Under the pieces are notes generated by a model. It was not told where the DNA came from and did no database searches. It saw only the letters and a list, made by a program, of their open reading frames with translations. From NCBI GenBank assembly GCA_009885275.1, contig VFKY01000060.1:1-26005 (forward strand): 26,005 nucleotides of DNA, written 5' to 3'. This DNA is from Verrucomicrobiota bacterium. GTDB taxonomy: Bacteria; Verrucomicrobiota; Verrucomicrobiia; Verrucomicrobiales; Verrucomicrobiaceae. Each line of letters starts with the position of its first letter. The stretch's first letter is position 1. A program made the translations under genes and the position numbers. Of the stretch, positions 8,030-24,329 are shown in pieces.

Positions 8030-9178
8030 ATGCAGCGCGGTCTCACTGGATATTACTTGCCCATCAGCAGTGCTGGGGAGTCTGCGCGAGCATTTATTCC
8101 CCAGCCATTGCCCCCCGATCCTCCTCTTCAGATTGATGGCGAATTGGGGGCGCTTTTGGATGCCGCCTCTACTGCATTGGGGCGTCTGGATGGTATTTCC
8201 TTATTGTTGCCCGATCCCGGCTTGTTTCTTTACACGTATGTCAGAAAAGAAGCGGTGCTTTCCTCACAAATTGAAGGCACCCAGTCGTCGCTCTCTGACT
8301 TATTGAGCCACGAGTTGGAAAATGCGCCTGCAGGTTTGCGACAAGATGCTTCAGAAGTCTCTTGTTATGTGGATGCCATGCAACAAGGCCTGGCACTCTT
8401 GAAGAAAGGCGAACCTCTCTCTCTGCGTCTCATTCGGGAGATTCATCTTGTGCTGCTTTCCCATGGGCGAGGGAGCGCGAAAATGCCTGGTGAATTTCGC
8501 ACCAGTCAAAACTGGATCGGCGGCTCGCGTCCTGACAACGCCCGATTTGTTCCACCACCACCTGATCATCTCATTGAGGTCATGGGCACGCTCGAGCTCT
8601 TTCTTCATGATAGACCTGTAAAGACTCGGCCATTGTTGAAGGCGGCTCTCGCCCACGTTCAATTCGAGACCATCCACCCCTTTCTCGATGGCAATGGCCG
8701 TCTCGGGCGCCTCCTCATCACTTTCATTCTTTGTGCGGAAGGCGTGTTGGATGCACCCTTACTCTATCTTTCTCTTTACCTCAAAAAACACCGAGATGAA
8801 TACTATCGCCTTCTTCAAGAAGTTCGGCAAAATGGTGATTGGGAAGAATGGCTCACTTTCTTTCTGACCGGAGTGCTGGAGACTTCTCGCGCCGCCACTC
8901 AGACTGCGCGAGAATTGCTCCGGCTCTTTGAACAAGATGCCATAATTTTACGCTCCGAGGCCGCCTCTGTCAGTCGTCTTCACCATCATCTTCAGCGTCG
9001 CCCGATTGTCAGCGTGGCCGAAACTGCAAAAGCTATCAGTGTATCAGTACCTACCGCAAATAAGGCACTCTCTACCTTAGAAAGCCTGGGCATCATCCAC
9101 GAGATCACAGGTCAATCTTACCGAAAAATCTTTTCTTACCGCGCTTACCTTGAAATATTAAACGCCGACACACTATAA
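8030..9178 (+). CDS. Fic family protein with C-terminal winged helix
   Basis: A 382-residue Fic/DOC enzyme, which usually transfers AMP from ATP to a Ser, Thr or Tyr of a target protein. An N-terminal Fic_N domain spans about residues 8-100 and holds the inhibitory motif SSQIEG (78-83, fitting [S/T]xxxE[G/N]), so this is a class II Fic with its own inhibitory helix. The active site is HPFLDGNGRLGR at 216-227, complete, with catalytic His216. A helical linker follows, then a winged-helix domain at about 325-372 (VSVAETAKAISVSVPTANKALSTLESLGII). This architecture is common as a stand-alone gene in bacteria; the DNA-binding domain suggests autoregulation. Two direct repeats lie just before the start. 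No antitoxin gene is beside it. Target protein unknown. Confidence 0.92.
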   Translation: MQRGLTGYYLPISSAGESARAFIPQPLPPDPPLQIDGELGALLDAASTALGRLDGISLLLPDPGLFLYTYVRKEAVLSSQIEGTQSSLSDLLSHELENAPAGLRQDASEVSCYVDAMQQGLALLKKGEPLSLRLIREIHLVLLSHGRGSAKMPGEFRTSQNWIGGSRPDNARFVPPPPDHLIEVMGTLELFLHDRPVKTRPLLKAALAHVQFETIHPFLDGNGRLGRLLITFILCAEGVLDAPLLYLSLYLKKHRDEYYRLLQEVRQNGDWEEWLTFFLTGVLETSRAATQTARELLRLFEQDAIILRSEAASVSRLHHHLQRRPIVSVAETAKAISVSVPTANKALSTLESLGIIHEITGQSYRKIFSYRAYLEILNADTL

Positions 9179-9210
9179 GGCTGAGTGGTTGCATTTTTTC
9201 ATTATTCTGT

Positions 9211-9990
9211 TCACAAAAACGCTGACAGAGGACTCGTTGCAGAAGCGAGTTCGCTGGCATCGGTCAGTCCAATTTCATAGGCGGCGCGCCCGGCTTCGGT
9301 GGCGGCTTTGAAGGCTTGGCCCATACGTGCAGGATCACTGGCGACGGCGATAGCGGTATTCACGAGGACGGCATCCGCTCCCATCTCCATGGCTTCGGAG
9401 GCGTGACTTGGAGCGCCGATACCAGCATCGACCACCACAGGAACAATGGCTTGCTCGATGATGATTTCAATTTGCCGACGGGTTGAGATTCCTTGATGGG
9501 AACCGATGGGGGAGCCTAACGGCATGACAGTGGCGGTGCCGATGTCTTGTAAACGTTTGGCCAATACAGGATCAGCATTGATGTAGGGCAGGACGATAAA
9601 TCCTTCTTTGACGAGGATTTCAGCAGCTTTGAAAGTCTCAATGGGATCGGGCAGAAGATAGCGCGGATCAGGATGTATTTCCAGTTTCACCCAATTGGGT
9701 AAGCCTGCGGCCACCGCGAGTCGAGCAAGCCGGACGGCTTCCTCGGCATTCATGGCGCCACTGGTGTTGGGCAGCAAGAGGTAGCGCTCTGGGGAGATGA
9801 ACTCTAAAATGTTGGCAAAGGGATCTTTTTTTCCGGTGAGATCAGCGCGTCGCAGGGCTACGGTCACGATCTCGCAACCGCTGGATTCCAGTGCATCGCG
9901 CATCAGTTCACCGGAGGCGAACTTGCCTGTGCCGAGCATGAGACGGGAATTGAACTGGCGACCAGCGATGATGAGGGGGCTGTTTTGCAT
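9211..9990 (-). CDS. thiG: Thiazole synthase ThiG
   Basis: A 259-residue TIM-barrel enzyme that forms the thiazole phosphate of thiamine from deoxyxylulose phosphate, dehydroglycine and ThiS thiocarboxylate. Conserved stretches are [16 protein letters not shown] at the start, [47 protein letters not shown] (with the Schiff-base Lys in VKLE), [13 protein letters not shown] (phosphate loop) and [31 protein letters not shown]. The ATG at 9988-9990 is preferred; a TTG at 10015-10017 would add nine residues and overlap the hemQ stop. It follows hemQ by 11 bp, so the two are probably co-transcribed. ThiS, ThiF and ThiH/ThiO are not in the window, which is unusual since thiG mostly sits with thiS. 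Confidence 0.95.
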
Positions 9991-10001
9991 CGAGTTAATA
10001 A

Positions 10002-10892
10002 CTAGAGCTGCACGCAACGCAGAAGTTCGTCCACGGGTTGTTGAATGCCGATATAGAAGTCGCCGAACTCACCATACTTAGCTGTGACTTCGTCGAAACG
10101 CATTTGATAAACGATGCCCTTCACGTGGAAGGTGTCGTGCGCCAGAAGCGTAACTCCCCATTCCATCGTGTCGAGTCCAGTGGAACCGGTGATGAGTTGG
10201 CGAATCTTACCATGCCATTGGCGACCGATGCGGGCATGCCCCTGCATGAGCTCCTTTCGGGCTTCGTGATCGAGATGATACCAGTTGTTGCCATCATTGC
10301 GGCGTTTGCTCATGGGGTAGAAACAAACGACCTGCCAGTCAGCCATGTTTGGGTAGAGGCGGTCGGCGTTGTATTTCTTGATGCGCTCACGCCATTCGGT
10401 GAGACGCAGTTCGAGGACGTCATTACCGTCGAGGTCATTCGGACTTAAGACCATGCCGGTGTTTTGTTCCGGTGCTTTCTTCAACTCTTCGATAAGTTCT
10501 TTTTTGTATTCTTCTTCACTGGTGGTGTATTCGCTAAGCTCCGTCATGGATAGGTAGCTGTAGGCTGGTTGAAGGATATCTGGACCGAGGGAGAGCGTGA
10601 GTTCCTTTTCAAAGCGGTTCGCATCGTGCAAGTCGGGGGTCAGCAGCATGAATCCTATGTCAGCCTTGGGGGTGACAACGCTGAAGATGAGCAATTGCGT
10701 TTGAGGATGAGAACGAATGGTTTGCAATAGCTCGCTGAAATTTGTCTTGGCCTCCCGTTGTTCTTCGCTGCTCATCATCCGCCAGAGGCCGTGATCAATC
10801 GAGTAAAAGAGATGCAGCACATGAAGTCCTTCCGCTGGAATGAGGGTGTTCTTGGTCTGAGTGGGAGAGTTTGGGAATGGTGTTGTGGACAT
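10002..10892 (-). CDS. hemQ: Coproheme decarboxylase HemQ (chlorite dismutase family)
   Basis: A 296-residue protein of the chlorite dismutase family. In the coproporphyrin-dependent pathway HemQ (ChdC) turns coproheme into haem b with peroxide. Visible features are FYPMSKRR at 191-198, where Tyr192 matches the catalytic Tyr of Firmicutes Hem[23 protein letters not shown] with His219 as the likely proximal haem ligand, and [18 protein letters not shown], the strongly conserved C-terminal block. True chlorite dismutases lack the YPM-type Tyr and have a distal Arg, so HemQ is the better call. An acidic insert (about 120-150, rich in Glu and Lys) is longer than usual. It is upstream of thiG and divergent from the ferredoxin gene, with 137 bp between. 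Confidence 0.9.
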
Positions 10893-11323: not shown

Positions 11324-11362
11324 ATGGGGCGTAATGCTCATTTAGCTGATAGGGTTCTCTTT

Positions 11363-11734
11363 ATGCGTTTCGTCACGCGCCATCAACGTCTCCGTCATCA
11401 CCTTATCGCCGATTGGCGTGGCGTGGAGGATGGTCCATTGATCGACAGTCCGGCGGTAGGGCTGGGGTCGCTCATTCCTGAAATATTAAAGACGTGGAAG
11501 CTTGATGAACGCCTCCATGAAGAGGAGTTGTCCTCAGCATGGCGGGAGACGGTTGGGGATTTTATTGCCCAGCACACAGCGCCCGATAGTTTGAAGCGAG
11601 GCGTTCTTACGGTTCGGATTTTGCAGCCTACGATTCACCACACGCTGATGATGGAAAAGGGCAGACTTTTGAAGCGGATGCAGGAGCGTTTTGGAAAGGA
11701 CACGGTGCGGGAGGTTCGCTTCCGTCACGGATAA
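11363..11734 (+). CDS. DUF721 protein, DciA-like
   Basis: A 123-residue protein from the ATG at 11363. A start at 11324 would abut the terminator T run, so the later ATG, which has AGGG about 9 bases before it, is preferred. The DUF721 core is IPEILKTWKLDERL..ELSSAWRETVGDFIAQHTAPDSLKRGVLTVRILQPTIHHTLMMEKGRLLKRM, then a closing VREVRFRHG, which matches the VxxIxFRxG ending of the family. Members include DciA, which loads the replicative helicase DnaB in bacteria without DnaC/DnaI. The N-terminal part is short, so this may be a small variant. It is 7 bp before the DUF2868 gene, so one transcript is likely. Confidence 0.78.
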   Translation: MRFVTRHQRLRHHLIADWRGVEDGPLIDSPAVGLGSLIPEILKTWKLDERLHEEELSSAWRETVGDFIAQHTAPDSLKRGVLTVRILQPTIHHTLMMEKGRLLKRMQERFGKDTVREVRFRHG

Positions 11735-11741
11735 TTTCATC

Positions 11742-13136
11742 ATGATTTGGCCTGAATTTCTCCAAGTTAGTCGTATCCGTGCCATTGAGGAATCGGATTC
11801 AGAGACTTGTGTTTGGGACAGAGATACCCTGCGCGAAGTAAATGTGGAAATGGCGAAAGCCGCGGGAGGGGATTCTGAACGCTTTCTGAGCAATCGCGCC
11901 TCATGGCTCGCGGCGAGAGTAAAAGTGGCATCAATCGTGCCAGCGTTGAGCTGTCAGGAGTTGCCATCCTGGCTGGGTACGACGGGATGGTTGATGGCTT
12001 TTATTGCAGGTTGGTGGCTTGCCGCACTGGGGCAGGAGAGTGAGATCAATCTGCTCGCCTTACCACTGATCGGTATTTTGGTTTGGAATGGAGGAGTGGT
12101 GATGTTGAGTGTGTTGACCAGTTTCAGTAAAGATAAGACCTCCTCTGTAGCACAAATTATTGAGCATTGGTTGCAGCGTTTCGGTGGCCCCGCCGTATCC
12201 GGAGCTTCCGACACTTCTCTGGAGGCTGCTAGTCGCAGAAGATTTAGAGAGCTAACTCAGTCGGTGTGGTTGCGTCATTTCAGTTGTAGTTTCAAAGCGT
12301 GGCTTCACCTCGGTGCTGCGCTTTTGGCGTTGGGTAGTATTTCTGGCATGTATGCTCGCGGATGGTCGAAGGAGTATCGCGCAGTCTGGGAGAGTACTTT
12401 GTTAGATGAAGCGGGAGCTCAGTTGTTTTTAGGAACGTTATTTACGCCTGCGGCAAAAGTTACAGGAATGGTGATTCCGAAGGAGCAATTGCCGGAGATG
12501 CGTCGTCGGCCTGAAAATGTTGTTTCTCGATCTGGTCCTGCATTGCCGTGGATTCATCTGTATGCCACAACCTTGGGGTTGTTTGTCATGATTCCGAGAG
12601 GCTTTTTGGTGCTGTTAGAATTAAATCGCGCTCAAAGAACATCGCGGCAAGTCCTTAAAGATGAAGACTGGCAGTCCTATGTGGAGAGGCTTCTGGCTTG
12701 CGCAGAAGGTGAAGGCGCAGTGGTGGAAATATTGACTTACGGATTACCGTTGAGTGATGAGTCGCAGGATCGATGGCGTTTGTGGGCAAAAAAACAATGG
12801 CGCGATATCGGACGTGCGGAATTTTGCGCGGTGCCGGTGGGAGGCGAAGCAGATTTTGTAAAGGACTGGCAACCCTCGACGACGCGGGTGTTGATTATCT
12901 TCAATCTTGCGGGAACTCCAGAAGTGGAGGTTCATCGCTGGCTCGCTGAGGCGCTCTTGGAGCGTAAATCGAGATCAATGATGCTCTTGGCGCTGGATGA
13001 AACCGAATTAATAAAACGCTGGGCAGGATTCGCTGATGCCAGGCAACGGCTTACTGAGCGGGAGAATTCATGGCGGCAAATGATGCGAGGGCTGGCGCTT
13101 AGTTTTCTTGAGATCGATAAACGCAACGCGGTTTGA
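11742..13136 (+). CDS. DUF2868 membrane protein
   Basis: A 464-residue protein from the ATG at 11742, just after the DUF721 stop; a longer reading from 11691 would overlap that gene. The first part is soluble (WPEFLQVSRIRAIEESD..FLSNRASWLAARV, as in DUF2868). Four likely membrane helices follow: WLGTTGWLMAFIAGWWLAALG, LLALPLIGILVWNGGVVMLSV, LHLGAALLALGSISGMYARGW and IHLYATTLGLFVMIPRGFLVL. The last 150 residues or so are cytoplasmic. In gamma-proteobacteria DUF2868 genes lie directly before DUF3482 GTPase genes, and the same order is seen here (46 bp gap). The function is unknown; a GTPase-linked membrane complex is the natural guess. Confidence 0.78.
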   Translation: MIWPEFLQVSRIRAIEESDSETCVWDRDTLREVNVEMAKAAGGDSERFLSNRASWLAARVKVASIVPALSCQELPSWLGTTGWLMAFIAGWWLAALGQESEINLLALPLIGILVWNGGVVMLSVLTSFSKDKTSSVAQIIEHWLQRFGGPAVSGASDTSLEAASRRRFRELTQSVWLRHFSCSFKAWLHLGAALLALGSISGMYARGWSKEYRAVWESTLLDEAGAQLFLGTLFTPAAKVTGMVIPKEQLPEMRRRPENVVSRSGPALPWIHLYATTLGLFVMIPRGFLVLLELNRAQRTSRQVLKDEDWQSYVERLLACAEGEGAVVEILTYGLPLSDESQDRWRLWAKKQWRDIGRAEFCAVPVGGEADFVKDWQPSTTRVLIIFNLAGTPEVEVHRWLAEALLERKSRSMMLLALDETELIKRWAGFADARQRLTERENSWRQMMRGLALSFLEIDKRNAV

Positions 13137-13181
13137 TGCTGCTTCGTTGACGAAACCCAGCCATGAAGTAGACAATTTACG

Positions 13182-14621
13182 GTGCCAACTACTGTTACTC
13201 TTAGTTTAATTTCTCACACCAATGCTGGTAAAACCACATTGGCGCGCACGCTGTTGCGTCGGGATGTTGGAGAAGTGCGGGATGCCGCCCACGTCACGAT
13301 TTTCAATGAAGCGCATGCGTTGATAAATGTGGGTGATGTTGCGCTCGTTTTGTGGGATACCCCTGGTTTTGGCGATTCCGCACGCTTACTCAAGCGCTTG
13401 CAAAGAGTGGATCGTCCGATGTTCTGGTTTTTTAATCAGGTGTGGGATCGCCTTACTGACAAACCGCTATGGTGCAGTCAGCAGGCATTGCGCAATGTGC
13501 GCGAAGAAGCTGATGTGGTTTTGTATCTTGTAAATGCGAGTGAGAGTTTGGTGGGCGGAACTTTCGTAGAGCCTGAAATGGAGATACTTGACTGGCTTGG
13601 CAAACCCGTGGTGGTGTTGTTGAATCAGACCGGCGCACCGCGACCTGCCGAGGAGGAAGCAGCAGAAGAATTTCTCTGGCGAGATCACCTCACCAAGTTT
13701 CCCATCGTCAGTAGCGTCATTAATATGGATGCCTTCTCCCGTTGCTGGGTGCAGGAAGGGGAATTGATGCATACCATTTCGGCAGTATTGACGGGAGCAA
13801 AGCGAGAGGCATTTGAGAAGCTTAGCGATGCTTGGACAGAGAGAAATGAAGCGGTCTTCGCTCGTTCGATGCAGGCGCTAGCCAATCAATTGATGGCCAA
13901 TGCTCTTGATGGAGTTGCTGTTAAAACAGAATCATTTTTGCAGAAGCTAGGATTTAATCGAGGGTCCATTGAGTCTGACTGGAGTGAAGCACGGCAGAAG
14001 TTAAGTGAATCCCTGGCGATGCGAGCTGAGCAGGCGATGAATGAGCTTATTGTTTTGCACTCGCTTGAAGGACACGATGAGACAGCGGCTTTGCTGGGGG
14101 CGCGGCGTGATTTTGCAGAGCCCAAGCAGGTGGAGGCTGCAGTTTGGAGTGCCGTAAGTGGTATTGCTACTGGGGCGCTGGCAGGATTGATTGTTGACCT
14201 CAAGGCCGGTGGACTCACGTTCGGAGGAGGAGCATTACTGGGGGGGCTTAGCGGAGGGTTCAGTGCTTATGCCTTGATCAAGACCTATCATCTCGTGCGT
14301 GCTGACGACAATAAGCTTCACTGGTCAGGTGAGCATTTTCGAGAACAAGTAAAACTCGCATTGCTCTCTTATCTCGCAGTGTCGCACTTTGGGCGAGGTC
14401 GTGGAACCTGGAAACGTGATCCGCGCCCAGCGCACTGGCAAGAGAGTGTGAATATGTTAATAGATGAATGGAGAGATAAAGTGGAATTCGTCTGGAAGCG
14501 TTCTCTGCGCAGTGACGTCTCAGTCTCTCGAGTGAATGAAGAGATGCTCATCATGATGACTGATCTCGGGAATGAAATACTCCGGCGATTGTATCCCCCA
14601 GCGGCTACACCTGATACTTAA
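13182..14621 (+). CDS. DUF3482 GTPase
   Basis: A 479-residue protein with a GTG start and no visible ribosome binding site. The N-terminal G domain has G1 SHTNAGKTTL (11-20), G3 WDTPGFGDS (58-66) and G4 LLNQTG (146-151), where NQTG replaces the usual NKxD. The C-terminal half is DUF3482: long helices, then a glycine-rich membrane-prone segment GIATGALAGLIVDLKAGG and GGGALLGGLSGGFSAYALI (about 325-365), so it probably attaches to the membrane. It pairs with the DUF2868 membrane protein just upstream. Members of this pair have no established job; a TRAFAC-type GTPase acting on membrane structure or ion balance is a guess. It is the last gene before a long gene-free stretch. Confidence 0.82.
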   Translation: MPTTVTLSLISHTNAGKTTLARTLLRRDVGEVRDAAHVTIFNEAHALINVGDVALVLWDTPGFGDSARLLKRLQRVDRPMFWFFNQVWDRLTDKPLWCSQQALRNVREEADVVLYLVNASESLVGGTFVEPEMEILDWLGKPVVVLLNQTGAPRPAEEEAAEEFLWRDHLTKFPIVSSVINMDAFSRCWVQEGELMHTISAVLTGAKREAFEKLSDAWTERNEAVFARSMQALANQLMANALDGVAVKTESFLQKLGFNRGSIESDWSEARQKLSESLAMRAEQAMNELIVLHSLEGHDETAALLGARRDFAEPKQVEAAVWSAVSGIATGALAGLIVDLKAGGLTFGGGALLGGLSGGFSAYALIKTYHLVRADDNKLHWSGEHFREQVKLALLSYLAVSHFGRGRGTWKRDPRPAHWQESVNMLIDEWRDKVEFVWKRSLRSDVSVSRVNEEMLIMMTDLGNEILRRLYPPAATPDT

Positions 14622-14666: not shown

Positions 14667-14702
14667 AAAAAAAAGCTCTCCGGCCTTGCGACCGGAGAGC
14701 TT
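14667..14702 (-). terminator. Strong Rho-independent terminator facing left
   Basis: An 11-bp perfect stem AAGCTCTCCGG/CCGGAGAGCTT (14673-14683 with 14692-14702) with an 8-base loop. Eight A residues on the plus strand (14667-14674) read as a T run after the stem on the minus strand, while no T run follows on the plus strand. It therefore ends a leftward transcript, yet no leftward protein gene lies to its right. Confidence 0.75.
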
Positions 14703-14910: not shown

Positions 14911-15146
14911 ATTTTACCGATTGACAGGCTTTTGGATTTTTTAAATGCGGCAAAAAAGATATAAAATGCATGAAAAGACTGTCCAAATTCTATATTTCTG
15001 GTGGTCTGTTCTGACATTCTTGTTTTTGCCGTCCAATTTCTCAATGCGTTCCTACACAATGATACATTTTGCGGTTTTCACGCGTTATATCGGGCCGGTC
15101 CCGAGTATTCACTAACTCGCTAAATTTCAAATTATACAATACAACT

Positions 15147-17546
15147 ATGATCACTAAAAAATGTATTTATAGCTTCTTAACTTTTGTGGCTATGACGATT
15201 TGCAGCCCGGCTGAGCAGAAAACGACAAGCGCAGATAATAAGCCAAAAAACTTAGTGTCAGCAGTGGAGTCAAAAAAAGAATCTGTGAAGGTTGCGGCGA
15301 AAGAGTCATCAATTGCCGGGGTTACCAAGTCTGATGTGACAGCGGTAGAAAATCATAATTGGTCGAGCTGGCGTGGTCCATTGCAGACCGGTGTCTCGAC
15401 TGAGCACTATAAAGACGGTAAGCTTAATCCAGTGCCGGCATGGGTCTATGATACCAAGGGACGTGGCGCACCTGTCGTATGTGATGGCAAACTATTCACA
15501 TGGGGCTATCGCGGTGAAACTTCCGAGCTAGTGGAAGTCTTAAGTTGCCTTGACGCTAAAACGGGCAAGAAAATATGGGAACATGAGTTCAAGGATTTCC
15601 TCAGTGACACAGTTTACGACAGGTACACGATAGGTGCTCCGACTGTCGATCCTGAGACTAAGCGTGTCTACCTGACCACTCACTATGGTTTGTTTATGAG
15701 CTTTGATTTCGAGGGTAAGGAGATCTTCCGTATTTCGATGATGGAAGATTTTGGCCGTATGAGTTTTCCAAACTCCCGTGTCGGCAGTGTTTCGATTGAG
15801 AGTGATCTTGCTATCCTTCATTGTATTTCTTCAAATTGGGGAGCCGACGGCCCTGCAGCGGATCGCTTCTACGCTTTCGATAAAATGACGGGCGAACTTG
15901 TTTGGTGGTCCATGCCGGGCGTGTCACCTCCGGTGGATAGCTCGTTTTCGACTCCTGTATTTGAAACACGCGACGGAAAACGCGTTTTCTATTCAGGCAC
16001 TGGCTGCGGTAATGTCGTCTGTGTCAATGCTCGCAATGGTAAGCCCTTGTGGCGTTGGCAGGCATGTAAGAATGGTGTGAATGCATCGGTGTTATTATAC
16101 AAAGGCAGTCTAATTTCTGTGCATGGTGATGAGAACGTGGATACTTCCGACAAAGGACGAATGGCGGCTATTAAGCTTCCTGAAAAACTAGCCCCCGCGG
16201 CACCTGGAGCGGAAAACAATGTGCTAGAACCGAGTGCCGAAGTTTGGCGCAATCCCATTGGCAGCAGTAACGGATCGCCCGTTCTTGTTGGGAATCAGAT
16301 TTACCAGCTTGATGACACTGGCGTGCTCAATGCGGTTAATGCAGATACGGGTGTGATTGAATGGACTAAAAAAGTAGCCACAGCAAACGTTCACGCCTCC
16401 ATCACGTTTGCTGATGGATTGATTTATGCGGCACTATTAGATGGTAGGTTGGCGATCTTGAAGCCCGGTGATAAAGACGCTGAACTGGTGCAGGAAGTAA
16501 AGCTGAGTGGACAGTGCATAGGCACTCCAGTCATTTCCAACGGACTTCTCTATGTTCATACTACCGACAAGTTTTATTGTTTTACTATCGAGAACAGCGG
16601 CATCACTTGGGATAAGGTGCCAGCACCTGAAATCCCTCAAGCAGGACCTGCAGCAGCATTGCAGATCATTCCCACGGAAGTGGTTCTCACTCCAGGTACA
16701 TCGGCGAAATTTCGCATTCGCAGTTTGGATAAAAATGGTTTTGTTGTCAACGAAGCAGTGAAAGCGACATGGGAGTCATTCATTCCTCCAACCGCAAAAG
16801 TGAAAAGTACATTGGATGCGAAGTTCAACGATGCTGGTGAATTGGTCGCAGCACCTGACGCCAAGCTTTCCGCAGGTGCATTCAAGGCAACAGCAGAGGG
16901 GGGTATTTTTAGCACCATTCGCGGCCGTGTATTACAAAACCTTCCCATCGCCATGGATTTTGAAAGCTATGAGTTGAATGAGGATCAACCGACAGAAGGG
17001 CTCAAATTTGCCTATCCACCTCTGCCTTGGATCGGTGCTCGCTTCAAGTTCGACGTGCGTGATATCAATGGCCAAAAGGTTTTTGCTAAAACATTTGATC
17101 GCATCCTCTTTCAACGCGCCACCACATTTATCGCACCATCAAATCTCTCGAACTACACGATACAAGCCGATGTTATGACAGATGGAAGTGCGCGTGTGAA
17201 ATCAGACATCGGCCTCTATAATCAGCGCTATCTCATCACCCTACGTGGGAACGCGAACCAGTTGGAAGTTAGTTCCAATCTGGAGAGACTCAAAGAAGTA
17301 GTGCCTTTCAAGATGACGGTAAACACTTGGTATGTATTGAAGACACGAGTCGATGTGAGCGCTGATGGCAGTGGTGTCGTTCGTGCCAAGGTATGGGATA
17401 AGGCCCAGCCAGAACCGGAAGCCTGGACGATGGAAGTGAAAGTCGCGATGGCTCACAAAAACGGTTCTCCCGGTTTGTTTAGTTTCACGCCACTCAATCA
17501 GAAGCGCGCCTATCTCGACAATGTCTCTGTGACTCCAAACAAATAA
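15147..17546 (+). CDS. Secreted PQQ-like beta-propeller protein with C-terminal LamG-like domain
   Basis: A 799-residue secreted protein. The ATG at 15147 gives a signal peptide (MITKKCIYSFLTFVAMTICS); an upstream in-frame ATG at 15069 would bury it and is rejected. A Lys/Ser-rich linker runs to about residue 70, then a beta-propeller starts at SSWRGPLQTGVS. Blade motifs of the PQQ_2/BamB kind are DAKTGKKIWEHEF, DKMTGELVWW, NARNGKPLWRWQA and NADTGVIEWTKK. From about residue 515 an Ig-like strand region (IIPTEVVLTPGTSAKFRIRSLDKNGF) follows, then a jelly-roll, LamG or 3-keto-disaccharide-hydrolase-like domain at the end (NYTIQADVMTD..RAYLDNVSVTPNK). I see no haem motif and no disulfide pair typical of PQQ alcohol dehydrogenases, so it need not bind PQQ. 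First gene of a five-gene co-oriented set; 33 bp before the next. Confidence 0.82.
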   Translation: MITKKCIYSFLTFVAMTICSPAEQKTTSADNKPKNLVSAVESKKESVKVAAKESSIAGVTKSDVTAVENHNWSSWRGPLQTGVSTEHYKDGKLNPVPAWVYDTKGRGAPVVCDGKLFTWGYRGETSELVEVLSCLDAKTGKKIWEHEFKDFLSDTVYDRYTIGAPTVDPETKRVYLTTHYGLFMSFDFEGKEIFRISMMEDFGRMSFPNSRVGSVSIESDLAILHCISSNWGADGPAADRFYAFDKMTGELVWWSMPGVSPPVDSSFSTPVFETRDGKRVFYSGTGCGNVVCVNARNGKPLWRWQACKNGVNASVLLYKGSLISVHGDENVDTSDKGRMAAIKLPEKLAPAAPGAENNVLEPSAEVWRNPIGSSNGSPVLVGNQIYQLDDTGVLNAVNADTGVIEWTKKVATANVHASITFADGLIYAALLDGRLAILKPGDKDAELVQEVKLSGQCIGTPVISNGLLYVHTTDKFYCFTIENSGITWDKVPAPEIPQAGPAAALQIIPTEVVLTPGTSAKFRIRSLDKNGFVVNEAVKATWESFIPPTAKVKSTLDAKFNDAGELVAAPDAKLSAGAFKATAEGGIFSTIRGRVLQNLPIAMDFESYELNEDQPTEGLKFAYPPLPWIGARFKFDVRDINGQKVFAKTFDRILFQRATTFIAPSNLSNYTIQADVMTDGSARVKSDIGLYNQRYLITLRGNANQLEVSSNLERLKEVVPFKMTVNTWYVLKTRVDVSADGSGVVRAKVWDKAQPEPEAWTMEVKVAMAHKNGSPGLFSFTPLNQKRAYLDNVSVTPNK

Positions 17547-17579
17547 AAAATTTCAACTCAATACCAAACAAAACGCACG

Positions 17580-19208
17580 ATGAAGAAATACACACTGATC
17601 ATATTTGCTGCCGCTTTAGTCTCAGGTTGTCTGCATGCCGCTGACTACCCACAATGGGGCGGTCAGAATTATCGGAATATGGTATCTGACGAAAAAGGAC
17701 TACCCGTGGATATCAATCCTGGGAAAAAACTTGGTCCCAAGGCTGCACCCAAAACAGCCGGTCGGCTTCGTCCCGATGCAGAAGAAGCCAATGCAGCGCC
17801 TGGTGCTGAAGATATTGACATGGCTACTACCAAAAACTGCCTCTGGGTGGCAAAGCTTGGCTCACAGACTTATGGCGCACCGATCATAGCGGATGGTAAG
17901 GTTTATATTGGAACAAATAATGAAAGCCCCCGCAACGGTGCTCATATTGGCGACCGCGGAATTGTGATGTGTTTTGAAGAAAAGACGGGGAAGTTTCTCT
18001 GGCAACTCGTCAGCCCAAAAATGGGGACAGGGAAAGTGAATGATTGGGAATATCTTGGCATCTGTGGCTCTCCAACCATCGTTGGCGATCGCGGTTATGT
18101 CCCGGGCAATCGTTGTCAGATCATCTGTTTCGATACCGCTGGTATGGCCAACGGAAATCAAGGCATGCAAGATGAGGCGGCTTTCATGGCGGCTCTCGGA
18201 CCTGACGGTAAACCTGTACCGGTTCAGCCTGGCGCTAAGGATGCGGATATCATCTGGGTCTATGACATGTATAAAGAGCTTGGTGTGTTCCAGCACAATG
18301 CCACCTCGGGTTATCCTCTTGTCGTCGGTGACAAAGTTTTCGTTCCGACCTGTAACGGAGTGGACTGGACGCATACCAATATCCCTGCACCGAACGCACC
18401 GAGTTTCATCATGCTGGACGCGAAGACTGGTACGCTTCTCGGTGAAATGGATCACACTGCAAGTGCCCGAGTACTGCATTGTTCATGGTCTTCTGCCATC
18501 GAAGTAAAAGTAAAAGAGCAACAGCAGATCGTCTTTGCCGCGGGTGATGGATGGATGTACGGCATGGCCCCTGAGACAAAAAAGGATGCTGACGGTCTGG
18601 ACATTCTCAAAGAGTACTGGCGCTATGACGCCAACCCCCCCGAATACCGTAAAGATGATAGTGGCAAACCCCGCAAGTATGCTGAATTCGACGGACCCAG
18701 TGAAATCATCGCCACCCCTGTATTCTACGATGGCCTTGTCTATGTGCCGATTGGTCAAGATCCTGAGCACGGTGAAGGGCTCGGTATGTTGAGTGCTATT
18801 GACCCCACGATGACAGGTGATATCAGCGGCAAGGCAGTTTGGACTTTTAAGGGTATTGAGCGTTCCATCAGCACCCCGGCGATCAAGGATGGGCTGATTT
18901 ATCTTAGTGATTACACAGGTCGTATGTTTTGTATTGATGCGAAAACCGGCAAGGAACATTGGAAGTATGACACCAAAGGACACATCTGGTGCAGTCCAGT
19001 GGTTGCCGATGGTAAAATATATATTGGAAATGAAGAGGGTGAGCTTTTCATTCTTGCTGAGGGCAAGGAGATGAAGGAGCTCGCCACCGTTGAGTTTCCC
19101 GCACCCCTTATGGGCGGAATTTCTGTTGCCAATGGCGTCCTATACGTCGCTTCACATACCCATCTTTATGCCTTCAAAGAAGGTGCCAAGGGCGTGGCCA
19201 AAAATTAA
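17580..19208 (+). CDS. Secreted PQQ-like beta-propeller (lipo)protein
   Basis: A 542-residue protein with an export signal, MKKYTLIIFAAALVSGCLHA. LVSGC could be a lipobox with Cys17 as the lipid site; cleavage after LHA by signal peptidase I is the alternative. The mature part begins DYPQWGGQNYRNM, the usual start of PQQ-propeller proteins (QWGGxxRN). Blades show TYGAPIIADGKVYIGTNN, EEKTGKFLWQL, GSPTIVGDRGYVPGNRCQIICFD, HCSWSSAI and DAKTGKEHWKYDTKGHIWCSPVVADGKIYIG. Similar proteins abound in planctomycetes and Verrucomicrobia, usually with no known job; they may be scaffolds or sugar/quinone-binding. True dehydrogenase activity is not supported by any visible active-site motif. Its neighbours are the other propeller (33 bp) and the adenylating enzyme (48 bp), which suggests one operon. 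Confidence 0.82.
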   Translation: MKKYTLIIFAAALVSGCLHAADYPQWGGQNYRNMVSDEKGLPVDINPGKKLGPKAAPKTAGRLRPDAEEANAAPGAEDIDMATTKNCLWVAKLGSQTYGAPIIADGKVYIGTNNESPRNGAHIGDRGIVMCFEEKTGKFLWQLVSPKMGTGKVNDWEYLGICGSPTIVGDRGYVPGNRCQIICFDTAGMANGNQGMQDEAAFMAALGPDGKPVPVQPGAKDADIIWVYDMYKELGVFQHNATSGYPLVVGDKVFVPTCNGVDWTHTNIPAPNAPSFIMLDAKTGTLLGEMDHTASARVLHCSWSSAIEVKVKEQQQIVFAAGDGWMYGMAPETKKDADGLDILKEYWRYDANPPEYRKDDSGKPRKYAEFDGPSEIIATPVFYDGLVYVPIGQDPEHGEGLGMLSAIDPTMTGDISGKAVWTFKGIERSISTPAIKDGLIYLSDYTGRMFCIDAKTGKEHWKYDTKGHIWCSPVVADGKIYIGNEEGELFILAEGKEMKELATVEFPAPLMGGISVANGVLYVASHTHLYAFKEGAKGVAKN

Positions 19209-19256
19209 TCAACTGATCAAACTTCATTTCGCCTTCATTCGTATTTCAAACTGTCT

Positions 19257-20306
19257 ATGAACTCTCAAGAACAACTCGATAATCATCTTCGCGAAATCAT
19301 TCAATGGCATTTCTCACCTGAAACAGGTTGCCCCTTTTGGCTTGAGTGGATGTCAAAAAACTTTGATCCCCGTAAGGTGATCAAAACAATTGAAGATGTA
19401 AAAAAGTTTCCGCATTTCGAAGACGAATGGCTCCGTGATCTCCAGCCTGAAGTTTGGATACCCGCGGCTTATAAAGGTCGCCCCTTTAACATTTTTGAAA
19501 CTGGCGGCACCACTGGCATGCCCAAGCAGCGTATCGGTTGGGAAGATTATAAAACAGACTACAGTGAATTTTCTGAGAAGATCAGCGACGAGCATTTTCC
19601 GCGTGGTGGTGCTTGGCTCATGATGGGGCCTACGGGTCCTCGGCGTCTTCGCCTCGCCATCGAGCATCTCGCCAATGTTCGTGGTTCTTCCTGTTATTTC
19701 ATTGATCTTGATCCTCGTTTTGTGAAGAAGCTGATAACGAATAAACAGTTTGATGTGGCTAAGCAATACATGGAACACGTGGCTGATCAGGCTGCGATCA
19801 TCTTAAAAAATCGCAAAGTCAGCGGTCTTTTTACCACACCGAAATTGCTCGAAGCATTATCTGAAAAAGTTGATATCTATGCGTCTGGTATTCGTGGTGT
19901 TTTCTGTGGTGGCACGACGATGTTGCCCCAGTATGTGCGCTTTATTGTAGAAGAAGTATTAGAGAATCGGATTGGCTTCTACCCCACTTATGGCAACACC
20001 CTGATGGGACTAGCCGCGAGTGTGCCGCTTACTCCGGAAGACAAATACTCGATTACTTACTACGCCCCGCAGCCTCGCGCTGTGCTCCGTGTGGTGAATC
20101 CCGAGAAGACCGAGGATACGGTGGAGTATGACACTTGGGGGCGAGTGGAGTTGACCACGATGACGAAGGAATTCTTTATGCCACGTTTTCTTGAGCGTGA
20201 TGAAGCTTTGCGTCGCAAGCCGCGCGCACCCTACACTTGGGACGGGGTCGCTGAAGTGCGTCCTTTTGGAGCCATGGAAAACAAGATCGTGGAGGGAGTT
20301 TATTGA
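19257..20306 (+). CDS. Short ANL-superfamily adenylating enzyme (LuxE/phenylacetate-CoA-ligase-like)
   Basis: A 349-residue protein. The AMP-forming P-loop is FETGGTTGMPKQ (80-91); a second core motif GVFCGGTTMLPQ lies near 214-225, the A5-like FYPTYGNTLMG at 241-251 and the acid-containing DTWGRVELTTMTKEFFMPRFLERDE at 292-316 (A7/A8 region). The protein ends soon after, so the mobile C-terminal subdomain with the usual catalytic Lys is missing or very short. Acyl-protein synthetases such as LuxE are of this short form. The likely reaction is ATP-dependent activation of a carboxylic acid to acyl-AMP. The ALDH-family gene follows after only 3 bp, and an iron alcohol dehydrogenase after that, in line with passing an acyl group for reduction. 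The acid is unknown; fatty, aromatic or sugar-derived acids are all open. Confidence 0.72.
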   Translation: MNSQEQLDNHLREIIQWHFSPETGCPFWLEWMSKNFDPRKVIKTIEDVKKFPHFEDEWLRDLQPEVWIPAAYKGRPFNIFETGGTTGMPKQRIGWEDYKTDYSEFSEKISDEHFPRGGAWLMMGPTGPRRLRLAIEHLANVRGSSCYFIDLDPRFVKKLITNKQFDVAKQYMEHVADQAAIILKNRKVSGLFTTPKLLEALSEKVDIYASGIRGVFCGGTTMLPQYVRFIVEEVLENRIGFYPTYGNTLMGLAASVPLTPEDKYSITYYAPQPRAVLRVVNPEKTEDTVEYDTWGRVELTTMTKEFFMPRFLERDEALRRKPRAPYTWDGVAEVRPFGAMENKIVEGVY

Positions 20307-20309
20307 GCC

Positions 20310-21740
20310 ATGTCGTTACCGCATCTTCCCGCTCTGCGCAAAGGTAAGCCCTACGAAAGTCTCGATAAAACAGAAGTCAAAGATCACCGCACTGGTGAGA
20401 TCTTGGCTACAGTCAGTCAGGTTGGCGCAGGTATTTTGCGCAAGGATTTGAGTCGTATTGGTGAAGCTCGTGACGACCTTCGTAAGTTCACCGTGGAGCA
20501 ATTGATTGCCATTTCTGCAAAGGCTGGCGACTTGTTTCTTAATGCTGAACTGACGTTTGGCGATCAAGGACACCTTCAAACACCGCAGCAATACACGGAG
20601 ACGCTTAGTCGTACCAGCGGTCTTCCGCATGTCATGGTGAAGCGCAACATGGCCAAAATTGCTGACGCGCTTTTTAACATGCGCACCGTGCTCAACGGAC
20701 TGACTCGCGGGCTGGACATGAGTATCATTGACATTGGGTATGGAGAACAAGCGGGATGCCCTGTGAGTTATTATCCCACTACGAATGCCTTGGGCTTAGT
20801 CATGCCGAGTAACTCGCCAGCTGTGAATTCGCTCTGGTTGCCAGCCATCGCACTCAAAACCCCGGTCATTATCAAGCCCGGTCGCGAAGAACCGTGGACG
20901 CCCTATCGTTTGATTCAGGCATTCATTGCAGCAGGCGCACCCGCATCTGCCTTTGGGTTTTATCCGACAGATCACGAAGGTTCAGGTGAAGTGATGAAGA
21001 CTTGTGGGCGCGCTTTGATTTTTGGCGATGCCAATACAGTTGCTCAATATAAGGACAATCCGAAATTTGAATGTCATGGTCCGGGCTTTAGCAAGGTTCT
21101 TATAGGTGAAGATGAAATTGAACGCTGGCCGGAGTTCATCGATGTTATCGCAGGCTCTATAGCTGACAATGGCGGACGCTCCTGCATCAATGCCTCTGCC
21201 GTAGTTGTTGCAAAATATGGTAGAGAGATCGCTGAAGCCCTGGCGAAGAAGCTTGGCCCGATCACTCCGTTGCCCTCTGATGATCCCAATGCCAAGCTAT
21301 CCGGATTTGCTAACGTTAAGATGGCCGAGTTCATTGATTCTGCGATCGAATCAGGACTTAAAGAGCCCGGAGCAGAAGATGTCACCGCTAAGTATCGTCA
21401 GGGTTCCCGTAAAACGGAACTTGGTGGCGGAGTTTATATGCAGCCCACCATCGTAAGGTGTGACTCCTTCAAGCATACCATGAGTAACCGGGAGTATCTC
21501 TGTCCCTATGCCAGTGTGGTGGAAGTTCCGCAAAGTGAGATGCTGGAACAAATTGGGCCTTCTTTGGTGGTGACCGCCATCACGAAGGATAAGAAGTTCA
21601 TCGATCAATTGTTGGAGTCGCCACTCATCGAAAGACTTAATATCGGACCGATTTCCACGATGAAAATTTCATGGAATCAACCGCATGAAGGCAACATGTT
21701 TGAGTTTCTCTACAAGCGCCGTTCCATTGACTTTGCTTAA
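20310..21740 (+). CDS. Aldehyde dehydrogenase superfamily protein, possible acyl reductase
   Basis: A 476-residue NAD(P)-dependent ALDH-superfamily member. Catalytic Cys292 is in NGGRSCINASAV. The cofactor-binding region is TNALGLVMPSNSPAVNSLWLPAIALKTPVIIKPG (158-191) and the conserved NREYLCPYASV is at 393-403. The usual ELGGK segment, whose Glu acts as base in aldehyde oxidation, reads HGPGFSK (256-262), which is closer to the GPGNxP type of CoA-acylating enzymes (EutE/PduP/AdhE) and LuxC-like reductases. So acyl transfer or acyl reduction is more likely than water-dependent oxidation. Starting ATG is 3 bp after the ligase stop, strong evidence of translational coupling. The next gene encodes an iron alcohol dehydrogenase. 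Substrate and cofactor preference are not known. Confidence 0.82.
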   Translation: MSLPHLPALRKGKPYESLDKTEVKDHRTGEILATVSQVGAGILRKDLSRIGEARDDLRKFTVEQLIAISAKAGDLFLNAELTFGDQGHLQTPQQYTETLSRTSGLPHVMVKRNMAKIADALFNMRTVLNGLTRGLDMSIIDIGYGEQAGCPVSYYPTTNALGLVMPSNSPAVNSLWLPAIALKTPVIIKPGREEPWTPYRLIQAFIAAGAPASAFGFYPTDHEGSGEVMKTCGRALIFGDANTVAQYKDNPKFECHGPGFSKVLIGEDEIERWPEFIDVIAGSIADNGGRSCINASAVVVAKYGREIAEALAKKLGPITPLPSDDPNAKLSGFANVKMAEFIDSAIESGLKEPGAEDVTAKYRQGSRKTELGGGVYMQPTIVRCDSFKHTMSNREYLCPYASVVEVPQSEMLEQIGPSLVVTAITKDKKFIDQLLESPLIERLNIGPISTMKISWNQPHEGNMFEFLYKRRSIDFA

Positions 21741-21767
21741 ACGTAGAGTGTTAGTGGAACTCAATTC

Positions 21768-22886
21768 ATGAATTCATTCGACCATTCGCCGCGCACGCGA
21801 CTTGTATACGGCAACGGTACGCTTTCGCGTATTGGTGAACTCGTGCGTGAGCTTGCAGGGCATAAAGTGCTGCTGGTCACGGATGCTGGCATCGTGAAAG
21901 CTGGTCATGCCGAGCGAGCCATTAATTTTTTGAAAAGTACAGGCTTGGAAGTGGCCTTGTATGACCAGGTTCATGAGAATCCTAGTACTAAAGATGTGGA
22001 TGATTGTGTGATCGCAGCGCGTGATTTTGAAGCGGATTTTCTTATCGGTCTCGGTGGCGGTAGCAGCATGGATACGGCAAAGGGATGCAACTTCATAGTG
22101 ACCAATGGGGGGAGGATGCAGGACTATTGGGGTGTTGGTAAAGCCACCAAGCCCATGCTGCCCATGATTGCTATTCCCACTACGGCAGGCACGGGAAGTG
22201 AGTGCCAGAGCTTTGCTCTGATTTCCGACGAAGTAACGCATGTTAAGATGGCCTGTGGAGATCCCAAAGCAGCAGCAAAAGTAGCCTTGCTCGATCCCGA
22301 GCTCACAATATCGCAACCGAGACGAGTTACTGCGGTGACAGGAATCGACGCGATCGCTCATGCCTTGGAGACCGCGGTTACGACGAAGCGTAATCCGCTT
22401 TCGGGAACATACTCTCGACAAGCGTTCCGTTTTCTGACGAAAGGCTTTGAGTGTGTTTTGGCAGATCCCACCGATATAGAAGCTCGCAGTTCTATGCTTT
22501 TGGGCGCGGCATTTGCGGGGATTGCTATCGAAAATTCGATGCTTGGCGCGGCCCATTCATGTGCGAATCCCCTGACGGCAGAATATCATTTGGTGCATGG
22601 GCAAGCAGTTGGATTGATGTTGCCACACGTCATTCGTTTCAATTCTGTCCTCCCTGAAGTGGCCGCTATCTATCACAGCTATTTTGAAGGGGATCTTTCT
22701 GACTATATTGTGAAGCTCCTTCGAGTCGCAGGTCTGGCAACCAACCTTCAAGAACTAGGAGTTAAAGAGGAGAGTATTCCCTCATTGTCCGCTAGTGCTG
22801 CAAAACAATGGACGGCCCAGTTCAATGCCCGCCCCATTACGGAAAGCGATTTTGCTAGGCTCTATCAGGCGGCAATGCATGATTGA
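21768..22886 (+). CDS. Group III iron-containing alcohol dehydrogenase
   Basis: A 372-residue enzyme of the Fe-ADH family (PF00465), which interconverts alcohols and aldehydes with NAD(P). NAD binding is shown by GLGGGSSMDTAKG (94-106). Metal ligands fit the FucO/AdhII pattern: Asp194 and His198 in GIDAIAHALE, His263 in LGAAHSCANPL, and His277 in YHLVHGQAVG. IPTTAGTGSE (136-145) is the other strong family motif. Full length. It follows the ALDH gene by 27 bp and ends the operon; a REP-like hairpin lies just beyond. In the acid-reduction reading it makes the alcohol from the aldehyde, and in the reverse reading it begins alcohol oxidation. The substrate is unknown. Confidence 0.92.
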   Translation: MNSFDHSPRTRLVYGNGTLSRIGELVRELAGHKVLLVTDAGIVKAGHAERAINFLKSTGLEVALYDQVHENPSTKDVDDCVIAARDFEADFLIGLGGGSSMDTAKGCNFIVTNGGRMQDYWGVGKATKPMLPMIAIPTTAGTGSECQSFALISDEVTHVKMACGDPKAAAKVALLDPELTISQPRRVTAVTGIDAIAHALETAVTTKRNPLSGTYSRQAFRFLTKGFECVLADPTDIEARSSMLLGAAFAGIAIENSMLGAAHSCANPLTAEYHLVHGQAVGLMLPHVIRFNSVLPEVAAIYHSYFEGDLSDYIVKLLRVAGLATNLQELGVKEESIPSLSASAAKQWTAQFNARPITESDFARLYQAAMHD

Positions 22887-23213: not shown

Positions 23214-23289
23214 GACAGCAAAGACTCTCTGAAGTCGGCATAATTGGCAAGCAGGGATCACGGCAAAATGACTCCCTGTGCTGACATGC

Positions 23290-23352
23290 TTTGTAGGGCG
23301 ACCGCTCCGGTCGCCTTTTTCAATAGGGCGGGCGGAGCGTCCGCCCTACAAA
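23290..23352. repeat. REP-like paired palindrome, family B
   Basis: Two stems lie head to tail: GGCGACCG/CGGTCGCC (23297-23315, loop CTC) and AGGGCGG/CCGCCCT (23325-23347). The outer ends also pair over 11 bp (TTTGTAGGGCG with CGCCCTACAAA, 23290-23300 and 23342-23352). So the element is a BIME-like double palindrome, sharing its lead sequence and CTC loop with 22901. Confidence 0.75.
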
Positions 23353-23435
23353 ATACCCGTAAGGAAGCGCGGACCCATGCTAAGAAGATACGACACTTGA
23401 AAGACTCGGCCCCCGGCTTCATGTTACCCTCCATC

Positions 23436-24329
23436 ATGAAACGTATCCTCCTGTCCCTCTTGCTATTAGCCTCTCCCGTTTTCGGGCAGGACGCCCCAAA
23501 ATGGAAGAAAGTGTTACCCAATCTACCAGATTCCATCACCTTGCATGAAAAGGTAGAGTGTTCGCATCCGGGTGATTTTTCGATACCACTCGACATCTAT
23601 GTTCCCAAAGGCGAAGGCGCCTACCCAGCCATCTTACTTATTCACGGTGGTGGTTGGAAGCAACGACAGATAGATGCTGATAAACCCTTAGCCGAGCGTC
23701 TCGCCTCTAGAGGTTATGTTGTTGCTCAAGTGGCATATCGTCTCTCCACTGAAGCTAAATACCCTGCCGCATTGCATGACTGCAAAGCCGCTCTCCGCTT
23801 TCTCCGGGCTCATGCCAATGATTACAAGATCGATCCGTTATCGATAGGGGTTGCTGGTGGCTCGGCTGGAGGTCACCTTAGCGGTCTTATCGGCATGACC
23901 GGTGGGGCAGCTAATATGGAAGGAGAGGGTGGGAATGCCGGTCAATTCACCAGTGTAAAAGCCTGTGTCGTCATGGCTGCGACTATGGATATTGTGGAAG
24001 CTAACAAGACGAGTAACAGCGAAGGTTACGTGTCGTTCTTTGGTCCGATTGCTGAAAATCGTGAGATATACGTCGAAGCTTCCCCGATCACTTATGTCAA
24101 TAAAGCAAGCCCCCCTACGCTTTTTATTGAGGGCGAAAAGGACACGCTTAAAGTTGGGCGCGCTGAAATGCAGCAAAAATTGAGAGCGTCAGGTGTACCT
24201 ACCGAAATTGTCACATTGAAGAATGCGCCGCATCCCTATTGGATGAGTCAACCTTGGCTTGATGAGACCGCTGAAGAAATAGCTGTCTGGTTTGATATAT
24301 ATCTCAAAGGATTTCCGAAAAAATCATAG
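23436..24329 (+). CDS. Secreted alpha/beta-hydrolase, BD-FAE/carboxylesterase-like
   Basis: A 297-residue secreted protein from the ATG at 23436; it gives a signal peptide MKRILLSLLLLASPVFG. A longer reading from a TTG at 23244 would run through the REP element and is rejected. Motifs: oxyanion HGGGW (70-74), nucleophile elbow VAGGSAGGH (139-147) with Ser143, Asp236 in IEGEKD and His266 in APHPYW. This fits the esterase/lipase (hormone-sensitive-lipase/BD-FAE-like) group; in Verrucomicrobia and planctomycetes such genes often act on acetylated or feruloylated polysaccharides, but that is a family-level idea. It stands between the small membrane protein (divergent) and phoU (108 bp further on). 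Confidence 0.85.
   Translation: MKRILLSLLLLASPVFGQDAPKWKKVLPNLPDSITLHEKVECSHPGDFSIPLDIYVPKGEGAYPAILLIHGGGWKQRQIDADKPLAERLASRGYVVAQVAYRLSTEAKYPAALHDCKAALRFLRAHANDYKIDPLSIGVAGGSAGGHLSGLIGMTGGAANMEGEGGNAGQFTSVKACVVMAATMDIVEANKTSNSEGYVSFFGPIAENREIYVEASPITYVNKASPPTLFIEGEKDTLKVGRAEMQQKLRASGVPTEIVTLKNAPHPYWMSQPWLDETAEEIAVWFDIYLKGFPKKS

Follow-up and report, generated by a model that had tools for sequence, protein, structure and literature searches.

Background

Single-chain carboxylic acid reductases (CAR) convert an aryl acid to the aldehyde via an acyl-AMP, using a single multidomain polypeptide that includes a carrier domain, and the fatty acid reductase LuxE/LuxC acts on a lipid substrate. In the biosynthesis of griseoluteic acid, a phenazine, EhpF and the enzymes following it take phenazine-1,6-dicarboxylate towards a hydroxymethyl-bearing product, according to an excerpt of PMC3175449, and ehpF and ehpG are also adjacent in Proteus mirabilis (excerpt of PMC11278526). 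In grixazone biosynthesis, GriC/GriD is a carboxylic acid reductase in which GriC adenylates 3-amino-4-hydroxybenzoate and GriD performs the reduction (excerpt of PMC10179220). Here we analyse a stretch of 26,005 nucleotides from a Verrucomicrobiota bacterium (GenBank assembly GCA_009885275.1, contig VFKY01000060.1, positions 1 to 26,005 of the forward strand), hereafter the window, which lies on contig C228 of a 2.54-Mb draft genome of 76.9% completeness. It carries five genes (Table 1) encoding two exported beta-propellers (propA and propB), an EhpF-family adenylating subunit, a reductase subunit of the aldehyde dehydrogenase (ALDH) fold and an iron-containing alcohol dehydrogenase (Fe-ADH). 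A group of Verrucomicrobia appears to keep this aromatic acid-to-alcohol pathway together with the exported propellers, the acid probably being derived from chorismate.

The set is a new assembly built around a known enzyme type. Its adenylating and ALDH proteins are homologous to EhpF and EhpG, adjacent and in the same order, and the likeness would extend to the chemistry, in which a carboxyl group becomes a hydroxymethyl group. Unlike the EhpF/EhpG system, the window set adds the Fe-ADH and the propellers, and no phenazine genes were found among the window open reading frames (ORFs) scanned. Identity to plasmid-borne relatives is 32-36% on the EhpF side (five adenylating proteins) and 23-25% on the ALDH side (aligned relatives), compared with 79-92% among the best 80, analysed here, of the 314 loci encoding a relative of the window's EhpF-like protein that a contig search returned. 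GriC/GriD, likened here by description, likewise uses two proteins for adenylation and then aryl acid reduction, and differs in its substrate, 3-amino-4-hydroxybenzoate. Compared to CAR, the window set divides the task between two proteins, the reductase being of the ALDH type. An earlier reading of the window from sequence only knew of no named system of this composition. This stands for the whole assembly, of which no description was found in the open-licence full-text literature as judged by title and start of abstract, but not for the enzyme part, for which EhpF/EhpG and GriC/GriD are named precedents.

Results and discussion

Adenylating and reducing enzymes

Pfam models identified two PQQ_2 propellers, AMP-binding, Aldedh and Fe-ADH in the five ORFs, the AMP-binding score of the adenylating enzyme (27.8 bits) being slightly under the cut-off of 29.9. 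This enzyme, P0003, belongs to the EhpF family over its full length: it matches the EhpF structure PDB 3L2K (E 3.3e-42, query residues 7-349), and GGT(T/V)G, ERD and a C-terminal EG(V/L)Y are common to 10/10 aligned rows. P0004, encoded 3 bp further on, has the ALDH fold and belongs to the family that usually partners EhpF; plasmid-borne relatives of P0004 adjoin EhpF-like genes in four regions viewed. The catalytic Cys292 is invariant in 11/11 aligned ALDH proteins, and in all 7 Verrucomicrobial rows of this alignment HGPG stands at the position of the ordinary ALDH general-base Glu, a replacement that would fit a reductase acting on an activated acyl group. P0005 is an Fe-ADH in which the four putative metal ligands are conserved in 6/6 rows.

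Family membership and motifs support the acid-to-alcohol route that the sequence-only reading had proposed for the last three genes. It had also allowed for the oxidation of an alcohol, a direction that is unlikely because the enzyme type spends ATP and the ALDH carries HGPG. Its comparison with LuxE/LuxC has to be replaced: the pair is of the EhpF/EhpG (GriC/GriD) type, and the LuxE and LuxC Pfam families gave no match at E 0.001 among the window proteins, which matched AMP-binding and Aldedh instead. In both systems an acid is activated and an ALDH-like protein then reduces the acyl group, although their families differ by Pfam. A reductase of fatty or other non-aromatic acids (or a coenzyme A (CoA) ligase with a reductase) in a LuxE/LuxC-like role, supplying alcohols for lipids or wax esters, would use the same chemistry, aliphatic aldehydes are often served by Fe-ADHs and ALDHs, and some sources give relatives of P0003 PaaK-like names. 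However, such a reductase is difficult to reconcile with EhpF-family membership, with the missing LuxE/LuxC match, or with co-inherited genes that resemble chorismate lyase and a phenol-type halogenase and a linked gene that resembles an aromatic-acid transporter, and we consider it highly improbable.

Association of the propellers with the enzymes

Synteny was counted by tblastn with chosen queries, an earlier ORF clustering having been disturbed by antisense shadow ORFs. Loci were testable upstream with at least 6.5 kb of flank (57 of the 80) and downstream with at least 5 kb (55 of the 80). Both propA and propB lie upstream of EhpF on the same strand in 45/57 loci, and neither does in 11/57. 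The downstream side is less constant, with ALDH in 23/55 loci, Fe-ADH in 19/55 and both in 18/55. Where both flanks are long enough, propA, propB, ALDH and Fe-ADH are all present in 14/40 loci. The association of these genes exceeds chance. A genome that is only a phylum-level relative has propA, propB and, 3.9 kb further, ALDH, EhpF and Fe-ADH. Four loci (L035, L072, L076 and L079) have EhpF homologues of 79-81% identity for which the searched partners were not found within 10 kb on either side.

In order to describe the distribution of the genes, we used 57 relatives, a near and biased set, in which propA was tracked by synteny alone. The counts were 44/57 for EhpF (E <= 1e-3), 47/57 for ALDH (E <= 1e-60), 47/57 for Fe-ADH (E <= 1e-80), 48/57 for propB (E <= 1e-80), 47/57 for a UbiC-like gene (E <= 1e-3) and 46/57 for a halogenase-like gene (E <= 1e-80), the last being the weakest of the six. 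The UbiC-like gene occurs in exactly the 47 genomes with ALDH. By coordinates read by hand, ALDH and Fe-ADH are neighbours in 37/47 genomes, a count lowered by contig breaks. All six genes are present in 43 genomes, none in nine, and a part of them in five, one of which (G007) lacks the halogenase-like gene only. The esterase gene beside Fe-ADH, taken as a contrast, is found in 28/57 relatives (E <= 1e-60) and does not follow the pattern. In a phylum-wide sample EhpF was found in 4/144 genomes, one of the four being only 28% identical, and the pathway is thus not a phylum-wide trait.

The link between propellers and enzymes that the sequence-only reading had drawn, with recurring synteny as its suggested check, is supported by both the 45 loci and the shared distribution. 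That reading had also held that scattering of the genes in close relatives would speak against a unit, and this is partly the case: genus g8 retains nearly all of them, yet mostly with long distances between EhpF, the ALDH/Fe-ADH pair and the propellers. A single operon is therefore not general, and the functional link still holds. If propellers and enzymes were mere neighbours, with propA and propB serving an unrelated envelope function, one could account for the distance of the propellers from EhpF in g8 and for genome G041, which keeps propB without the enzymes. Such an explanation would leave aside the order of propA, propB and EhpF repeated in most testable loci, the presence of propB in all 47 genomes with ALDH and, in five g8 genomes (G026, G027, G029, G032 and G035), a distance of less than 20 kb between propB and the UbiC-like gene instead; we regard it as distinctly unlikely.

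A second module and the probable substrate

Another contig of the same genome carries a second module, consisting of a third propeller (propC), a HemN-like radical S-adenosylmethionine (SAM) protein, a UbiC-like chorismate lyase and a halogenase-like flavoenzyme. This module and its shared distribution are new here. Since the UbiC-like gene has the same distribution as the pathway and second-module genes come after Fe-ADH in 11/80 loci, a chorismate-derived hydroxybenzoate is the most probable substrate. The UbiC-like protein matches the chorismate lyase fold, as it does GntR/HutC effector domains, and its Arg, Glu, PLG and GR align with Escherichia coli UbiC in 10/10 rows, the Arg and Glu presumably being the catalytic residues of UbiC. 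As for the flavoenzyme, flavin-dependent halogenase motifs are named GxGxxG, WxWxIP and Fx.Px.Sx.G in an excerpt of PMC7336383. WxWxIP and Fx.Px.Sx.G were present in 13/13 matching rows (10 distinct genes) and GxGxxG was seen by eye in two sequences, so that by motif the protein is a putative flavin-dependent halogenase; its NCBIfam scores are far under the cut-offs, and flavoenzymes of the QhpG, LodB and GoxB type are also weak matches. In G010, three consecutive stretches matching the flavoenzyme (L164, 13814-17000) lie about 3.3 kb from propB. A tail-specific protease, a type IV leader peptidase, isoleucyl-tRNA synthetase (IleRS) and others (L147, L148) were considered as members of the module and rejected, having been seen in single genomes only.

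A major facilitator superfamily (MFS) gene lies between propB and EhpF in 27/57 loci and a MarR gene in 29/57. The single MFS protein tested scored best against TIGR00895 (aromatic acid/H+ symport), far under the cut-off. The MFS protein of related loci (L010, 6106-7782) has a long hydrophilic insert of about 110 residues between membrane segments, as judged by eye. Transporter and regulator would suit detoxification or salvage, in which plant- or lignin-derived aromatic acids, rather than a product of chorismate, are taken up and their reduction yields alcohols of lower toxicity, the propellers serving as outer binding proteins. However, a Pfam scan of 20 window ORFs found neither MFS nor MarR, and the UbiC-like gene accompanies ALDH genome by genome, which makes this explanation unlikely in our view.

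Proposed pathway

From family membership, motifs, synteny and shared distribution we infer the following reactions and roles. The EhpF-like subunit would adenylate an aromatic carboxylate using ATP. The ALDH-fold subunit would then bind the acyl group through its Cys and, using NAD(P)H, reduce it to the aldehyde, which the Fe-ADH would convert to a benzylic alcohol. The substrate would most likely be a hydroxybenzoate that the UbiC-like lyase, part of the co-inherited second module, forms from chorismate, and the halogenase-like flavoenzyme and the HemN-like radical SAM protein would probably decorate the compound. The propellers may be binding, carrier or assembly proteins outside the cytoplasm, for the product or its conjugate. 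Taken as a whole, an aryl-acid to aryl-alcohol path with a chorismate-derived hydroxybenzoate as substrate, tailoring by the second module and propellers outside the cytoplasm is, on the sequence evidence, the account that we favour with moderate confidence.

Several observations weigh against this account. With regard to the enzymes, several sources call relatives of P0003, among the matches listed, PaaK-like adenylate-forming proteins, so that a CoA ligase is a conceivable alternative; a fifth plasmid region (L128), annotated as arylcarboxylate reductase, has an EhpF-like gene without an adjacent ALDH; and the plasmid records matched number 18 for P0004 and 28 for P0003. Three genomes of 85-95% completeness (G005, G020 and G026) lack EhpF only, and G041 has propB alone of the six genes. 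EhpF adjoins ALDH in only 15/44 genomes and propB in 13/44, all three being together in 11/44 (coordinates read by hand), where contig breaks depress adjacency counts. The absences fall mainly in genus g12 (family f2), family f6 and one f3 genome (G041), and being confined to clades they imply few independent losses, perhaps three. The background for the 47/57 pattern is a single contrast gene, the esterase. With regard to the second module, GntR/HutC effector domains match the UbiC-like protein at a Z like that of chorismate lyase among the matches listed, its profile comparison with UbiC (hhalign) is weak (probability 3.7), and neither Pfam nor NCBIfam models gave an identification. The halogenase-like gene adjoins the UbiC-like gene at an identity of at least 61% in only 6/46 genomes (G000, G022, G039, G048, G050 and G056); the other best matches are 47-57% identical and unlinked, and are perhaps another subfamily.

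The exported propellers

By eye, both propA and propB begin with a Sec-type signal sequence, and many propB homologues with a visible start have a DWPxWGG motif after the signal, which reads DYPQWGG in the window. A structural model of propB (mean pLDDT 78) matches BamB chains with TMt of about 0.70-0.78. Although its fold is like that of BamB, propB is longer, is linked to an aromatic pathway and scores far under the curated BamB model (TIGR03300, cut-off 285.2), at 52.1 bits compared to 61.4 for propA; no gene of the beta-barrel assembly machinery (BAM) was found among the window ORFs scanned. The sequence-only reading had called the propellers PQQ-type, a term that holds for the repeat label only. 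Scores against the pyrroloquinoline quinone (PQQ) dehydrogenase model (TIGR03075, cut-off 480.05) were 35.5 bits for propA and 39.8 bits for propB, adjacent Cys-Cys was absent from P0001 and P0002 by eye, and pqqC was found in 0/57 genomes, with 14 control genomes likewise giving no signal. PQQ catalysis by the propellers, considered as a candidate, is unsupported on these grounds. A dedicated chorismate-derived molecule, such as a hydroxybenzyl alcohol or the corresponding aldehyde, perhaps with a halogen and a radical-SAM modification, might instead be the ligand or redox cofactor of the three co-inherited exported propellers, as a PQQ substitute where no PqqC was found, an idea that we consider very doubtful.

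An alignment of 26 propB sequences has 110 invariant columns, many of them polar and including five His, and this would fit a conserved site better than a bare scaffold. The propB of G041, from a genome without the pathway enzymes, retains 95/110 invariant residues and all five His, and this adds to the points against our account by weakening the case that the site exists solely for the pathway product. Matches to propB number 9 to 29 per genome in the 21/25 genomes that have any.

Locus layout and neighbourhood

The coordinates and gaps of the five same-strand genes given by the sequence-only reading were confirmed (Table 1). All five ORFs are intact, with intergenic gaps of 33, 48, 3 and 27 bp, and the ATG of propA is nested in a longer frame with a TTG start at 15069. 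A promoter and terminator scan gave no more sites than shuffles, and no terminator-like sites in the four gaps.

Table 1 Genes of the five-gene set. Positions are those of the window.
Gene	Protein	Position	Strand	Description
propA	P0001	15147..17546	+	Exported BamB-like (PQQ_2) beta-propeller, C-terminal extension (LamG-like by eye only); adjoins propB in related loci
propB	P0002	17580..19208	+	Exported beta-propeller, BamB-like fold
EhpF-family adenylating subunit	P0003	19257..20306	+	GGTTGxPK signature; length class of EhpF
ALDH-fold reductase subunit (EhpG-like)	P0004	20310..21740	+	Cys292 invariant; HGPG replaces general-base Glu motif
Fe-containing alcohol dehydrogenase (Fe-ADH)	P0005	21768..22886	+	Putative metal ligands Asp194, His198, His263, His277

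A strong hairpin of 13 pairs (14673-14702), with a T run on its minus-strand side, lies between a DUF3482 GTPase gene and propA, and an A+T-rich stretch separates it from the propA start. A DciA-like gene, a gene for a 481-aa protein without Pfam match and the DUF3482 GTPase gene (11324-14621) also precede the set in L003, L004 and L122, so that the surrounding neighbourhood is conserved in the genus. Further upstream (8030-10892) are genes for a Fic-domain protein, ThiG and a chlorite-dismutase-family protein. The esterase, of the BD-FAE type (23244-24329), comes after Fe-ADH here and in L003, L004, L122 and L123. It was rejected as a general sixth member, given its count among the relatives and no occurrence in families f3, f4 and f5. 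Alignment to its homologues begins only at about residue 61-84, and its true start is therefore probably later than the listed TTG.

Conclusions

The two-component aryl acid reductase, a type familiar from antibiotic clusters, appears here as a slowly evolving trait in most of the near relatives sampled. Together with the second module, which adds putative tailoring enzymes and, in the UbiC-like lyase, a probable substrate supply, it amounts to a concrete candidate pathway of about nine genes. The set also offers a first clue to the function of the exported propellers, which are numerous in these genomes.

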